From Arthrobacter sp. MYb214 (GTDB taxonomy: Bacteria; Actinomycetota; Actinomycetes; Actinomycetales; Micrococcaceae), in contig NZ_PCPZ01000004.1 in the NCBI RefSeq assembly GCF_002979865.1, forward strand, positions 186,001 through 250,000: a stretch of DNA of 64,000 nucleotides, given 5' to 3'. Below, piece by piece: positions 39,389-44,495 of this stretch (position 1 is the first letter of the stretch; each line of letters starts with the position of its first letter). Both the position numbers and the translations under genes were made by a program. A model generated the notes under the pieces. The model made no database searches. It saw only the letters and a list, made by a program, of their open reading frames with translations, and was not told the DNA's origin.

Positions 39389-41206
39389 CTACCTTGCACT
39401 GACCTTGCCGAAGAGCCGGGCTATGGATGCGAGGATCATTGGCCGGCAGGCCAGCCAGGCGCCGGCGATTACGAGCAGCGAGAGCGCGAAGAAGAGCAGT
39501 CCGGTCCAGTTATCCGCGTACGCGGCTGGATCCGTGGAACCCTGGGCCGCGTACATGTGGTTCAGGTTGCGCAGCGCCCCGGTGGAGAACACCAGGATCA
39601 CGTGCACGAGGATGAACACAGCGAAGTACAGCATGGTTGGGAAGTGCAGCGCGCGGGCAACCTCGATCGGGTACTTCGCGGTCAATGCTGGCATGTTCTT
39701 CGGCCAGAAGGCGCTGAGCCGGAAGCCGGTGATCGCCGCGACCGGGGCCGCGATGAACACGGTGGTGAAGTAGGCCAGCTGCTGCAGCGAGTTGTAATTC
39801 ACCCAGCCGTTTTCGGTGGGCCAATCCAGCGTCAGGTACTGCAAGGCCGCCGAAATCGCGTTGGGGAAGACCTCCCACGACGTCGGGACGATGCGCATCC
39901 AGTGGCCTGTGGCGAACAGCAGCACGAGGAACACCAGGCCATTGATGATCCACAGCAGGTCAAGACCCTGATGCAGCCAGAGGTTGATGCTCACCTTCGG
40001 GCTGCGCTTCGACGACCAATAGGCAGGCGGCTTCTTCTGGTGCCTGACCAGCATGCCAGAACGGATGATCAGGACCATCAGGAAGAAGTTGAAGAAGTGG
40101 TTCCATGCCAGCCAGCCAGGGAACCCGAGAGGTGCCGAGTCCGGCAGGTGGTACTCACCCGGGTAGCGTTCCATGAATGACTCCACGGCATCGATGCCGG
40201 CAATGCCGCGGGCAACGAGCACCACGGCGGTGGCGATGCCCAAGGCGCAGAATGCGCCAAGGATTCCAGCCAGCACCCACTGCTTGGTCGTCATCGGGCC
40301 ATGCTTGGCCGCTTCTTTCTTGCTCTTCGCCGCTGCCTGGGGTGCCGGCTTGCTCGCGCGCCCGGCGGTCGACGCGTTACTTGCCGCGGCTGCTGGCGCG
40401 GCAGGTTCCTGCGCACCCATGCGGGTACGGGCAGGAGCAGCCTGCACCTCGGCGGCCGCAGGCTCCGAGACCAGCGCGGCGCCGGATGCCTGGCCCACCG
40501 GATCCGCGGGTGCTGCCTCTGCCCTCGGCGGGATGGCCGGTGCGGCCTGGGCCTGGGCAGCTTCCGCAACCGGTGCCGGCGGGAGCGCAGGCGCTGGAGC
40601 CGCTGGAGCTGCGGCAACAACGGGAGCTGCCACGAATGAACTTGGCGGCCACGGTTCTGCACCGGCGGTGCGCGGCAGGCCACGGCGAACTGCTGGTGCC
40701 CCGGCACTGGAAACCGCTGTGGCCGGGGCGGTACCCGCGGTGGCAACTGGTTCGGGGGCCGCCGGCGCTGATTCAGCTACCGGTTCGGCAACCGGTTCGC
40801 CAACTAGCTCGGCAACCGGCTCAGGTGCTGGTGCAGCGGAAGCGTTCTGCGATGCGGCTGGAGCGTTCGCGGCGACCGGCGTTCCCGCAGGCGGCCACGG
40901 CCCGCCGCCGGCAACCCGTGGCAGGCCCTGGCGAAGAAGCCCGGCAACCGCGCCCTGATCTGCAACAGGTTCCGCGGCCGGTGCGCTGGCTGCGGAACTA
41001 GCAGATGCTTGGCCAGGCGTTGGTTCCGCAGGCACCGACGGGCCAACGGGCTGGTCGAGAACTGGTTCTGCAGCATCCTCGACCGCGCTAGGCCCTGCCG
41101 GGACCGCGGCGCCTGCAGCGGGAGCGAACAGCTCGGCTGGCGGCCAGGGATCGCCGCCGGCCACGCGCGGCAGCCCCTGGCGGATGGATTGGTTTGGTGC
41201 GTTCAT
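39389..41206 (-). CDS. Cytochrome b/b6-domain membrane protein with repeated N-terminal motif, linked to EtfAB
   Basis: This 605-residue protein has two very different parts. Residues 1 to about 300 form a low-complexity Ala/Pro/Glu-rich arm with three copies of an RQGLPRVAGGDPWPP-like motif at residues 9-23, 92-106 and 174-188. From about residue 310 there are 5-6 membrane helices with cytochrome b561/formate dehydrogenase gamma-like character and possible haem histidines (NHFFNFFLMVLIIRSG, LWLHQGLDLLWIING, ARALHFPTMLYF). It starts 5 bp after etfA in an etfB-etfA-cytochrome operon. It probably passes electrons from reduced ETF to the quinone pool and the arm may dock ETF; both are inference. 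Confidence 0.8.
   Translation of the reverse strand: MNAPNQSIRQGLPRVAGGDPWPPAELFAPAAGAAVPAGPSAVEDAAEPVLDQPVGPSVPAEPTPGQASASSAASAPAAEPVADQGAVAGLLRQGLPRVAGGGPWPPAGTPVAANAPAASQNASAAPAPEPVAELVGEPVAEPVAESAPAAPEPVATAGTAPATAVSSAGAPAVRRGLPRTAGAEPWPPSSFVAAPVVAAAPAAPAPALPPAPVAEAAQAQAAPAIPPRAEAAPADPVGQASGAALVSEPAAAEVQAAPARTRMGAQEPAAPAAAASNASTAGRASKPAPQAAAKSKKEAAKHGPMTTKQWVLAGILGAFCALGIATAVVLVARGIAGIDAVESFMERYPGEYHLPDSAPLGFPGWLAWNHFFNFFLMVLIIRSGMLVRHQKKPPAYWSSKRSPKVSINLWLHQGLDLLWIINGLVFLVLLFATGHWMRIVPTSWEVFPNAISAALQYLTLDWPTENGWVNYNSLQQLAYFTTVFIAAPVAAITGFRLSAFWPKNMPALTAKYPIEVARALHFPTMLYFAVFILVHVILVFSTGALRNLNHMYAAQGSTDPAAYADNWTGLLFFALSLLVIAGAWLACRPMILASIARLFGKVSAR
40643..41182 (-). repeat. Three copies of a LPRxAGGxPWPP-type motif in the cytochrome-like protein
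   Basis: Copies are encoded at 41138-41182 (RQGLPRVAGGDPWPP), 40889-40933 (RQGLPRVAGGGPWPP) and 40643-40687 (RRGLPRTAGAEPWPP). Spacing is 83 and 82 residues. The DNA between them is Ala/Pro/Glu-rich with degenerate short VAEP-like repeats near 40745-40825. The conserved, regularly spaced motif on a disordered arm suggests a repeated docking site. Confidence 0.85.
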
Positions 41207-41211
41207 GGCGA

Positions 41212-42192
41212 TCAGGCCTTGCGTGCTTCCAAGGCGGAAATCAGTTGGGGCACGACCTTGAAGACATCCCCCACCACGCCGAAGTCGGCGATCTCGAAGA
41301 TCGGTGCATCGGCATCCTTGTTGATGGCGATGATGGTCTTGGCGGTCTGCATGCCCGCCTTGTGCTGGATGGCTCCGGAAATGCCCAGTGCCACGTACAG
41401 CTGGGGAGAAACTGCCACGCCGGTCTGGCCCACCTGGGCGGCATGCTCGACGTATCCGGCATCCACCGCCGCACGCGACGCGCCCACGGCAGCACCCAAG
41501 GCATCGGCCAGCTGGTGCACCAGGTCGAACTGCTCCGCGCTGCCCAACCCGCGGCCACCGGAGACCACGCGTGCCGCGGAACGCAGCTCGGGACGGGTGG
41601 ATGCCGTTTCGGCCGTTCTCAGTTCCTTGACCTCGACCTCCGGCTTGCCGCTGGCGGCTACCTCCAGCGGGATCGCGCTCGCCGGTTGGGCCTGGGCACG
41701 CTCTTCGATGCTGCCCACGCGCACGGTGATCACCGGCGCGCCGAAGGTCGGGGCGCTGTGGGTCGAATACGCGCCGCCGTAGATCGAGTGGGCTGCGATG
41801 ATTCCCTGGTCATCACGCGAAACACCGAGCGCATCGACGCTCAGCGCCAAGCGGTGGCGCACCGCGAAGCGTGCGGCCACTTCGCGCGAAGCCAGGGTAT
41901 GCCCCAGCAGTACGGCTTGTGGCTGGATTTGCGCGAAGGCCTGCTGCAGCGCGTCAGCCATCGGCGCGGTCAGCACCGGAGAATCGACGGCGGCGGTGAG
42001 TACCTGCGCGGCGCCAGACTCGCTGGCTTGCGCCGCCAGGGTATCAAGGGATCCGGCCGGAGCGGCGACAAGCGCTACCGGGGTGCCCACGGCAGAGGCG
42101 GCGCCGAGCAGTTCCTCGTGGTTCTTGGCCAGCGTTCCAGTGGCCGTGGTCTCGAGGAAAACAAGAATTGAATCAGAAGCAAAGGAAGTCAT
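41212..42192 (-). CDS. etfA: Electron transfer flavoprotein alpha subunit
   Basis: This 326-residue protein is the FAD-binding alpha subunit of ETF, which collects electrons from acyl-CoA and other flavin dehydrogenases. The C-terminal FAD domain signature is clear: VSGGRGLGS, then [20 protein letters not shown] and [21 protein letters not shown] use ATG 42192 with GGAAAG upstream. It lies 14 bp after etfB and 5 bp before the membrane cytochrome-like gene, so the three are one transcription unit. Confidence 0.95.
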
Positions 42193-42206
42193 GGTTTTCT
42201 TTCCGC

Positions 42207-42983
42207 TCACACCAGGTTGTTCTTGACGAGGAATTCGGCCACTGCGTTACCGGCATCGCCGTCATCGGCAATGACAGTTCCAGCGGTGCGGGGCGGGCGC
42301 TGGGCCACCGAAACCATGATGGAACGCGCAGTATCCGCAGGCAGGGACTCGACGCCCAAATCGGCCAGGGACAGGGACTCGACCGGTTTCTTCTTCGCGG
42401 CCATGATGCCCTTGAAATTCGGGAAGCGGGCATCCGGCAATGCCTCGGTGATCGAAGCGACCGCTGGCAATGGAGCGCTGATCTGGGCGGCAGCGCCATC
42501 CAGCTCGCGCAATCCGCTGATCGCGCCGTCGGCAATTTCTACCGAGGACAACGAAGTCGCCGCCGGAAGATCAAGCAGCTCGGCCAGCATGACCGGGAGC
42601 ATGCCCGCGGAGCCGTCGGTGGACATGTTGCCGGTGAGGACCAGATCGTAGCTGCCTCGGCGCAAAGCCGCCGCCAGGACCTGCGCGGTGAGGACCAGAT
42701 CGGCGCCGAGAAGCTCCTCGTCGCTGATATGCACGGCGCTGGCAGCGCCCATGGCCAAGCCCTTGCGCAGGGTGGCCTGAGCTGAATCCGGGCCCATGGT
42801 CAGCACGGTGATTTCAGTTCCAGGGTTCGCATCAGCATGCTTCAGCGCAACTTCCAAGGTCCGCTCGCCGATTTCATCGAGCACCACTTCTGAAGCGGCA
42901 CGGTCAGCCAGGCCGGTCTCCAGATCCAGCAGGCGGTCCTCTCCGGTATCTGGGACTTCTTTGATCAAAACCGCGATCTTCAT
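42207..42983 (-). CDS. etfB: Electron transfer flavoprotein beta subunit
   Basis: This 258-residue protein pairs with EtfA and binds AMP in canonical ETFs. It has the EtfB pattern: [15 protein letters not shown] at the N-terminus, [27 protein letters not shown], and [23 protein letters not shown], the family signature. AGGGAG precedes ATG 42983. It is the first gene of the leftward operon. No NADH- or lactate-dehydrogenase partner for bifurcation is adjacent, so an ordinary housekeeping ETF is likelier. Confidence 0.95.
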
Positions 42984-43385: not shown

Positions 43386-44495
43386 ATGGCCAGCAAAAAG
43401 CGTCAAGGCAAGAAGAACTCGGGCGCAGGAAATCCTGCCAAGGCGGCAGCGCGCGGCCGCAGCGTGTTCCTGATCCAGGCTGAACAGCAGATCAATGCGC
43501 TTCGCCAGGACTACACAACTTGGGTAGCGCAGCAGGTTCCTGCCTTTTCGTCTGAACAGGCGGCGCAGGCAGCGGGCATGCAGCTGGACGTCATCGGGCA
43601 GATCGCCGGCCAGTACGCCGAGAACGCCCGCAGCTCGAACCTGTTCGACCTGGACATCGATGTCTTCGGCGAGACTCTGGCCGAGCACCTGGGCAACCTG
43701 CCGGAATCCTTGGCTCCGGAGCCGATCTTCACCACATGGCTGGAATACTTCAGCTTCATCGAGCAGCGCATGCTCTGGCAGGGCCCTGCGGAGAACCTCG
43801 AAGCCCTGCGCGAGATGCTGGAAGATACGCTCAATGGTTTTGCCGAGGGCGACGCGGAGCTATGCGGATTGCTGCGCGAAACCAGGTTGTTCAGCCAGGT
43901 CAAGGCCTATGCCCAGGCAGTGGCCGAAGGCGTGGACATGGAGGACTTCAGTGCAGCAGCCGAAGCGCCGCGCGCCAAGGTATTGACTGCCGTTGGCCTG
44001 GATGCCGAAACCTTCGACCCGGAAGGCCCGGCGCCACTAGCCTTCAACTACATCTGGAGCGCCGGCCGGATGTCCGTCGTGGAGTCGGAAGGATCGGTGT
44101 TGCGCACGGATCCGGACGCCTACGAATTGCTGGTTGCCGGCGAGGAAGCGGGCAGCGCGCAGCTGCTCTTCGAGATGGCTGTCGGCTGCGTCCAGGCGCA
44201 CCTGAACCCGACCTTCGATGTCACCTTGCGGGATGAAGCCCATTACCTGGTGCTGCGCAACCTGCTGGTCACCGCATCCACCGGCCGCGAAGGGGACTTG
44301 GAGGGCCTGCGCCGCAACTGCGGTCCGAAGATCTACGATGCCGTGCTTCCAGAAGCCCGCATCGCCATGGATTCCTTGGTCGGCTACGGTCTGATTTCCA
44401 AGGACGGCGAGCACTACAGCATCGACGAGCGCCTGGTTCCGGTCATCTCCGCCGGCATCTCAGAGGTCGAGGCCTTCTTCGAAGAAGCCGAATAA
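43386..44495 (+). CDS. Hypothetical protein sharing a domain with the 28711-30495 protein
   Basis: This 369-residue soluble protein begins with a lysine/alanine-rich segment (MASKKRQGKKNSG) and is otherwise helical and acidic. I recognise no family, but it aligns colinearly with the N-terminal domain of the pRiA4b-type protein: LEYFSFIEQRMLW (119-131) with ADYVEFLRDAGLW (118-130), and GLISKDGEHYSID (335-347) with GLIEDGEAYSVP (349-360). It lacks the C-terminal pRiA4b domain. An AAAGGA site precedes the ATG. Function unknown. Confidence 0.85.
   Translation: MASKKRQGKKNSGAGNPAKAAARGRSVFLIQAEQQINALRQDYTTWVAQQVPAFSSEQAAQAAGMQLDVIGQIAGQYAENARSSNLFDLDIDVFGETLAEHLGNLPESLAPEPIFTTWLEYFSFIEQRMLWQGPAENLEALREMLEDTLNGFAEGDAELCGLLRETRLFSQVKAYAQAVAEGVDMEDFSAAAEAPRAKVLTAVGLDAETFDPEGPAPLAFNYIWSAGRMSVVESEGSVLRTDPDAYELLVAGEEAGSAQLLFEMAVGCVQAHLNPTFDVTLRDEAHYLVLRNLLVTASTGREGDLEGLRRNCGPKIYDAVLPEARIAMDSLVGYGLISKDGEHYSIDERLVPVISAGISEVEAFFEEAE

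Follow-up and report, generated by a model that had tools for sequence, protein, structure and literature searches.

A putative b561-type cytochrome with a repeat-bearing arm as candidate membrane partner of an electron-transfer flavoprotein in Arthrobacter sp. MYb214

We analyzed a 64,000-nucleotide stretch of DNA from Arthrobacter sp. MYb214 (contig NZ_PCPZ01000004.1, positions 186,001 to 250,000), referred to here as the window. The analysis centers on the two genes for an electron-transfer flavoprotein (ETF) and the membrane protein gene that follows them. The three genes are consecutive on the minus strand, with intergenic gaps of 14 and 5 bp.

42207..42983, minus strand: etfB, ETF beta subunit, 258 amino acids; Pfam ETF domain PF01012, 3.4e-32
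41212..42192, minus strand: etfA, ETF alpha subunit, 326 amino acids, ATG start; PF00766 ETF_alpha, 3.7e-33
39389..41206, minus strand: putative ETF-linked b561-type cytochrome with an N-terminal arm, 605 amino acids; PF01292 Ni_hydr_CYTB, 8.3e-7

EtfB contains the ETF domain, EtfA contains both the ETF domain and the flavin adenine dinucleotide (FAD)-binding ETF_alpha domain, and their genes are adjacent, as expected of EtfAB. An alternative GTG start of etfA at 42210 is possible. Judged from sequence comparisons, an ETF-oxidizing role of the 605-residue protein is quite likely. It is probably the membrane partner of this EtfAB, a two-haem b561-type ETF:menaquinone oxidoreductase. The first-pass annotation of the window had described the same three genes and gaps, with coordinates that agree with ours. 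It had also proposed an ETF-linked b-type cytochrome distinct from ETF:quinone oxidoreductase (ETF-QO) and EtfD, which is now backed by gene order and the phylogenetic profile.

The membrane domain occupies the C-terminal half of the protein and contains four candidate haem ligands.

39392..40330, minus strand: membrane domain, residues 293-605, with six predicted transmembrane helices (residues 307-336, 363-389, 407-433, 473-496, 514-541 and 568-586)
40097..40099, minus strand: His370, candidate ligand of the outer haem with His535; conserved in 101 of 101 rows
39971..39973, minus strand: His412, candidate ligand of the inner haem with His521; 101 of 101 rows
39644..39646, minus strand: His521, candidate haem ligand; 101 of 101 rows
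39602..39604, minus strand: His535, candidate haem ligand; 101 of 101 rows

The domain alone scores 31.0 bits with PF01292, just above the cut-off of 30.1, and the whole protein scores 29.4 bits, just under it. All 37 members of a broad cytochrome alignment match this family at E<=1e-3. AlphaFold2 modeled the domain as six long helices, with a mean predicted local distance difference test score (pLDDT) of 87.2 and a predicted template modeling score of 0.80. The four histidines are located on predicted helices 2, 3, 5 and 5, respectively. The rows that conserve them include armless, unlinked and molybdopterin-fused relatives; a further histidine, His550, is kept in 95 of the 101. The presence of two haems is likely.

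The suggested bis-His pairs, His412/His521 and His370/His535, are modeled on FdnI-type cytochromes and their haem ligands. FdnI has one ligand pair 14 residues apart, as does the window cytochrome. Three of the four FdnI ligands fall on conserved histidines only in two localpair runs among six MAFFT alignments, and comparing profiles with those of FdnI and HyaC produced no usable alignment. In each of the 37 rows, the loops predicted to be inside are richer in Lys plus Arg, with means of 14.0 versus 2.9. This bias places the N-terminus, the arm and the C-terminus in the cytoplasm. By the same bias, the His412/His521 pair lies toward the inner side of the membrane and the His370/His535 pair toward the outer side.

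Gene order links this cytochrome to ETF. A scan of the genome contig collection with the membrane domain found 266 relatives, and the best 80 were retained. These are mostly from Microbacterium, together with Glutamicibacter, Arthrobacter, Agromyces, Agrococcus and Microcella, one Pseudarthrobacter and one metagenome-assembled genome labeled Corynebacterium. The nearest membrane domain is that of Glutamicibacter nicotianae, with 94% identity. etfA is located directly upstream in 71 of the 80 best relatives, and in eight others the contig ends before the etfA position. The start codons chosen give a distance of -1 to 14 bp between etfA and the cytochrome gene across 71 full-length cases, which include the window's own and leave out L048. 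The remaining relative (L068, from a metagenome-assembled genome) has room upstream and yet no etfA. There, an apparent enoyl-CoA hydratase gene and genes resembling those of the 2-methylcitrate cycle precede the armed cytochrome. An apparent natural EtfB-EtfA fusion (L048, 3478-5172) was rejected, as it reads as a frameshift, from a damaged gene or a sequencing error. The only other match to the whole protein in its own genome (L002, 31%, E 0.006) has no copy of the arm motif described below.

The linkage extends to a second sample of 110 genomes from the family of genome G218 (f4), four of which are shared with a 296-genome sample of the class. The family appears to be Microbacteriaceae, as named Microbacteriaceae rows nest with f4 rows in the tree. 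At 37 of the 40 etfA places in these genomes (27 of 29 genomes with ETF), a cytochrome domain follows on the same strand and begins 144-1383 bp beyond the ETF_alpha match. The cytochrome family is present in 29/29 genomes with ETF versus 21/81 without it (Fisher p 2e-13, counts ignoring kinship). Five of these 21 contain, by match shape, only a molybdopterin-fused kind. Among the 13 f4 genomes of the class sample, the eight with ETF are the same eight with an armed cytochrome (Fisher p 0.0008). The five without ETF carry only an armless copy. Three genomes (G301, G373 and G379) contain three etfBA-cytochrome loci each, some of them near acyl-CoA dehydrogenases. The sequences of distant homologs at L100-L111 suggest fusion to a molybdopterin oxidoreductase domain, with PF00174 shown for L100 and L102. 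They are interpreted as the same membrane module with another donor.

Known ETF dehydrogenases appear to be missing from this family. In the 296 genomes of the class, ETF_alpha is found in 282 and CCG proteins in 278. CCG is lacking in 18 genomes, among them all 13 of family f4, so that the CCG domain of EtfD is found in 0/13. The ETF-QO domain PF05187 is absent from the 296 class genomes, from the 110 family genomes and from the 605-residue protein; the same profile matched 3 of 14 control genomes. CCG matches occur in 7 of the 110 genomes. G357, which has no ETF, contains two strong matches in a 316-residue frame, G301 contains two moderate matches in a 599-residue frame, and the other five contain single weak matches. 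Judged by score and frame length only, none of these proteins seems EtfD-like. The 605-residue protein matches none of the EtfD domains (two CCG, PF02754, and 4Fe-4S), which were detected in the controls L190 and L191. The genome of the window has only two CCG matches, both in one 304-residue frame, too short for EtfD. Together, the gene order, the profile and the lack of an ETF-QO or EtfD-like protein make the cytochrome the best candidate for the ETF:menaquinone oxidoreductase.

Acyl-CoA dehydrogenases are abundant in the genomes with ETF. The median number of matches per genome is 7 with ETF and 3 without (p 4e-9), and at least 21 of the 40 ETF places have such a gene within 10 kb. This excess and the linkage make acyl-CoA dehydrogenase to ETF to cytochrome to quinone the simplest chain. 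In the proposed mechanism, acyl-CoA dehydrogenases would reduce ETF, whose FAD would donate electrons to the cytoplasm-proximal haem (His412/His521). From there, the electrons would cross to the outer haem (His370/His535) and reduce menaquinone. The cytochrome would have no flavin or iron-sulfur domain of its own. Many relatives would in addition have acquired a long arm on the cytoplasmic side, which carries up to three [RQ]GLPRxxGG[ED]PWPP motifs and is most likely a tether whose several weak docking sites keep ETF near the membrane. We infer haem binding and pairing, the electron path, menaquinone and the function of the arm. Direct flavin-to-haem transfer is established chemistry, as in flavocytochromes and NADPH oxidases. 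Transfer from the FAD of ETF to haem without an iron-sulfur step is unusual for ETF. Menaquinone is assigned as the acceptor because it is the known quinone of the group.

The proposed system resembles several known ones in part. Mitochondrial-type ETF-QO (ETFDH) and FixCX also oxidize ETF and reduce quinone; ETF-QO is a protein with FAD and a 4Fe-4S cluster. The b561-type cytochromes FdnI, HyaC and PhsC belong to the same Pfam family, PF01292, and have four membrane histidines. Unlike them, the window cytochrome has one extra N-terminal helix and a putative cytoplasmic flavoprotein partner. Because of the extra helix, its b561 core is predicted to be inverted in the membrane. The two-haem succinate:menaquinone oxidoreductase works in a similar way, with a cytosolic donor, two b haems and menaquinone. 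It is unrelated, and the window cytochrome lacks its FAD and iron-sulfur subunits. For that enzyme, the proton potential has been proposed as the driving force of the uphill reaction (PMC7447783). By analogy, and tentatively, the same drive could operate in the cytochrome if its core is inverted relative to FdnI. Mycobacterial EtfD (Rv0338c/MSMEG_0690) is likewise a membrane partner of ETF with menaquinone, a b haem and a disordered repeat region (PMC13083937). EtfD contains an iron-sulfur wire (CCG and 4Fe-4S domains) in addition to the b haem, whereas the window cytochrome has no iron-sulfur domain and four candidate ligand histidines. In addition, the repeats of EtfD are in a C-terminal tail and those of the window protein in an N-terminal arm, and their sequences differ.

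The arm contains three copies of a 15-residue motif and possibly a remnant of a fourth.

40331..41206, minus strand: Ala/Pro-rich arm, residues 1-292, 32% Ala and 18% Pro, predicted cytoplasmic
41138..41182, minus strand: motif copy 1, RQGLPRVAGGDPWPP, residues 9-23
40889..40933, minus strand: motif copy 2, RQGLPRVAGGGPWPP, residues 92-106
40643..40687, minus strand: motif copy 3, RRGLPRTAGAEPWPP, residues 174-188
40409..40429, minus strand: possible degenerate fourth copy, RTRMGAQ, residues 260-266

The composition of the arm and the model of a relative suggest that it is disordered. Three copies spaced 83 and 82 residues apart on an Ala/Pro-rich arm had been noted earlier, and our recomputed values are the same. 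The strict pattern GLPRx5PWPP is found three times in the real arm and in 0/20000 arm shuffles, and GLPRx5PWP has no further occurrence in the six frames of the window. RTRMG is also found in L003, and the arm of L216 has RTRMGG/RARMGA repeats. The C-terminal PPRTAG of EtfB (gene 42210-42983) is similar to LPRTAG of the motif (40643-40687), and may reflect mimicry of an EtfB segment.

We compared 71 full-length relatives, including the window protein and leaving out L048. They are mostly from Microbacterium, so that they are not independent and the closest relatives dominate the counts. Exactly three [RQK][GS][LM][PA]R cores are found in 65, two in four and four in two, and 58 have their first core at residue 10. 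Counting only complete motifs with PWP, 44 proteins have three, 20 have two, five have one and two have none. Median core spacings in the 65 three-core proteins are 82 and 76, with ranges of 40-127 and 33-110, indicating that the spacing is flexible and the motif fixed. This confirms the earlier claim that the motif is kept while the spacers have drifted. In the same 65 proteins, the motif Trp is retained in 95% of first, 97% of second and 97% of third copies. RGLPR remains and PWPP has decayed in L082 of Pseudarthrobacter and L080 of Agrococcus, suggesting that the basic half of the motif is more durable. An ancient ordered triplication is hardly favored, as the copies are no more alike by position than within one species. 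Between species, mean identity is 0.517 when the same copy is compared and 0.498 when different copies are; within a species, different copies have a mean identity of 0.522. Label shuffles gave at most 0.507 versus 0.515.

The arm varies widely among linked cytochromes. It is absent from L197-L207 and L227, contains one short core in L209 and L210, two RRGL cores in L208 and L211 and four R-x-RMG-like repeats in L216, and elsewhere up to three full motifs. We read 36 of the 37 linked loci; the other, a copy in G301 whose profile score equals that of L221, was counted as armed. The arm stretch of L213 is frame-broken and partly N, so that its arm state cannot be judged. In L227, 979 bp separate etfA and the cytochrome gene. 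A tree was built of 101 rows (18 of the 63 loci L020-L082, L003-L019 and later loci, leaving out contig-cut loci and own duplicates). Armed rows are mostly in one weakly supported group (88/83), with L211 and L216 outside it. These patterns suggest that an ETF-linked cytochrome gained the arm secondarily and that the arm is not its engine, although the deeper forks of the tree are weak.

Several observations weigh against the proposed role of the cytochrome or of its arm. Foldseek of the confident domain model found no significant match in the PDB (best E 1.2, TM-score 0.20), with a b561 structure (4o7g) at E 2.9; such a search has little power for helical membrane proteins. Searching PDB sequences with a profile also gave no significant match, the best being a subunit of Alternative Complex III at E 0.08 over 53 positions. 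The b561-type assignment therefore rests on Pfam and the histidines. Three of the 40 etfA places have no cytochrome nearby, and the occurrence of the cytochrome domain in genomes without ETF indicates that it has other uses. The genome of the window encodes a second ETF (L182:8546-10369, contig C1), whose EtfA is 44% identical, and no EtfD-size CCG protein or ETF-QO that could serve it was found there. In G002, G258 and G274, ETF is present and no EtfD-size CCG protein, ETF-QO or armed cytochrome was found, so that a further ETF partner must exist. The arm is missing from 12 of the 37 etfBA-linked loci in the 110-genome sample, so that pairing with ETF does not need it. This also refutes the arm as a strict mark of ETF linkage, which the class sample had suggested for f4 (8/8 versus 0/5). 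In an AlphaFold model of an artificially fused chain of a relative, the ten-residue mean pLDDT is 30-39 at all three motifs. This is a weak negative, because the C-terminal half of EtfA is also poorly modeled. Two side observations concern these loci: the second etfBA is beside a PIG-L deacetylase gene, with a cysteine-desulfurase-like gene, identified by eye, some kilobases off, and in G002 and G258 an armless cytochrome is about 7.5 kb from etfA.

The first-pass annotation had read the repeat as a docking site, most simply for EtfAB or a flavin dehydrogenase. Docking of EtfAB was not demonstrated: there are armless linked homologs, and the fused model gave no contact signal. We nevertheless favor docking on ETF, and consider the chances that the arm binds ETF evenly balanced. 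The arm is on the cytoplasmic side, where ETF is, its motif is conserved, and some unrelated EtfD proteins have repeat tails. EtfD-like C-terminal tails contain VKGLGxAxGAKxPGAKK-like repeats in L190 and L191, DPWD repeats in L129 and NAAPSWE repeats in L188. GGSLFD repeats are found in nine frames of about 1100-1300 residues (L113-L116, L118, L120, L124, L130 and L141), and other tails inspected are short. A motif common to arm and tails was considered for RRGLG of L208 and L211 and VKGLGxAxGAKxPG, and rejected, as the short [KR]GL core could be due to chance. The GGSLFD, APSWE and DPWD repeats do not match the arm motif. The EtfD repeat tail is predicted to touch ETF, and disordered regions are described as short or lacking in FadF and DgcB (PMC13083937). 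In M. tuberculosis, EtfD co-precipitates with EtfB (PMC8593149).

Pairing without an arm and the lack of a contact signal in the fused model also fit a different function, in which the motif docks a partner other than ETF, such as acyl-CoA dehydrogenases or a second cytochrome copy, or nucleates clusters of beta-oxidation enzymes. The repeat tails of unrelated EtfD proteins and their predicted contact with ETF argue against this explanation, which we consider a serious if somewhat improbable one. A second alternative is that the cytochrome exchanges electrons with another soluble partner, and that etfBA is its neighbor because of a shared pathway of fatty-acid or branched-chain acid degradation, without direct contact. 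Homologs unlinked to etfBA, the distant molybdopterin-fused homologs and the position of L068 after a putative enoyl-CoA hydratase are consistent with it. However, the gene is downstream of etfA on the same strand at nearly all etfA places, and no other known ETF dehydrogenase was found in the 110 genomes. We therefore regard this alternative as unlikely. Functionless low-complexity drift of the arm, suggested by its Ala/Pro richness, variable length and absence from some lineages, is very improbable given the retained Trp and the three cores of most full-length relatives.

The preferred assignment as an ETF:menaquinone oxidoreductase allows a broader and more doubtful proposal. The cytochrome may represent a third, independently evolved class of ETF dehydrogenase, with transfer from FAD to haem and no iron-sulfur relay. 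Since the extra first helix would invert the b561 core, electrons would move outward across the membrane from its cytoplasmic side, spending proton-motive force to reduce menaquinone uphill. Disordered arms bearing short, repeated ETF-docking motifs would have arisen convergently in unrelated actinobacterial ETF dehydrogenases. A literature search that reached few subscription papers found none on this cytochrome as an ETF partner. Elsewhere in the window, a 369-residue open reading frame (43386-44492) divergent from etfB has no Pfam match at E<=1e-3.

The sampled actinobacteria of this group have ETF and many acyl-CoA dehydrogenases and neither known kind of ETF dehydrogenase, and the cytochrome is a candidate for the missing link. 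It may, in one bacterial group, take the place of the ETF dehydrogenases known elsewhere. If so, it would be a simple ETF:menaquinone oxidoreductase with haem only, offering a clean system for studying electron transfer from ETF to the membrane, in which to ask how acyl-CoA oxidation can drive the reduction of low-potential menaquinone. Because armless, one-motif and three-motif forms occur naturally, the role of such repeat arms, also present on some EtfD proteins, can be tested directly.

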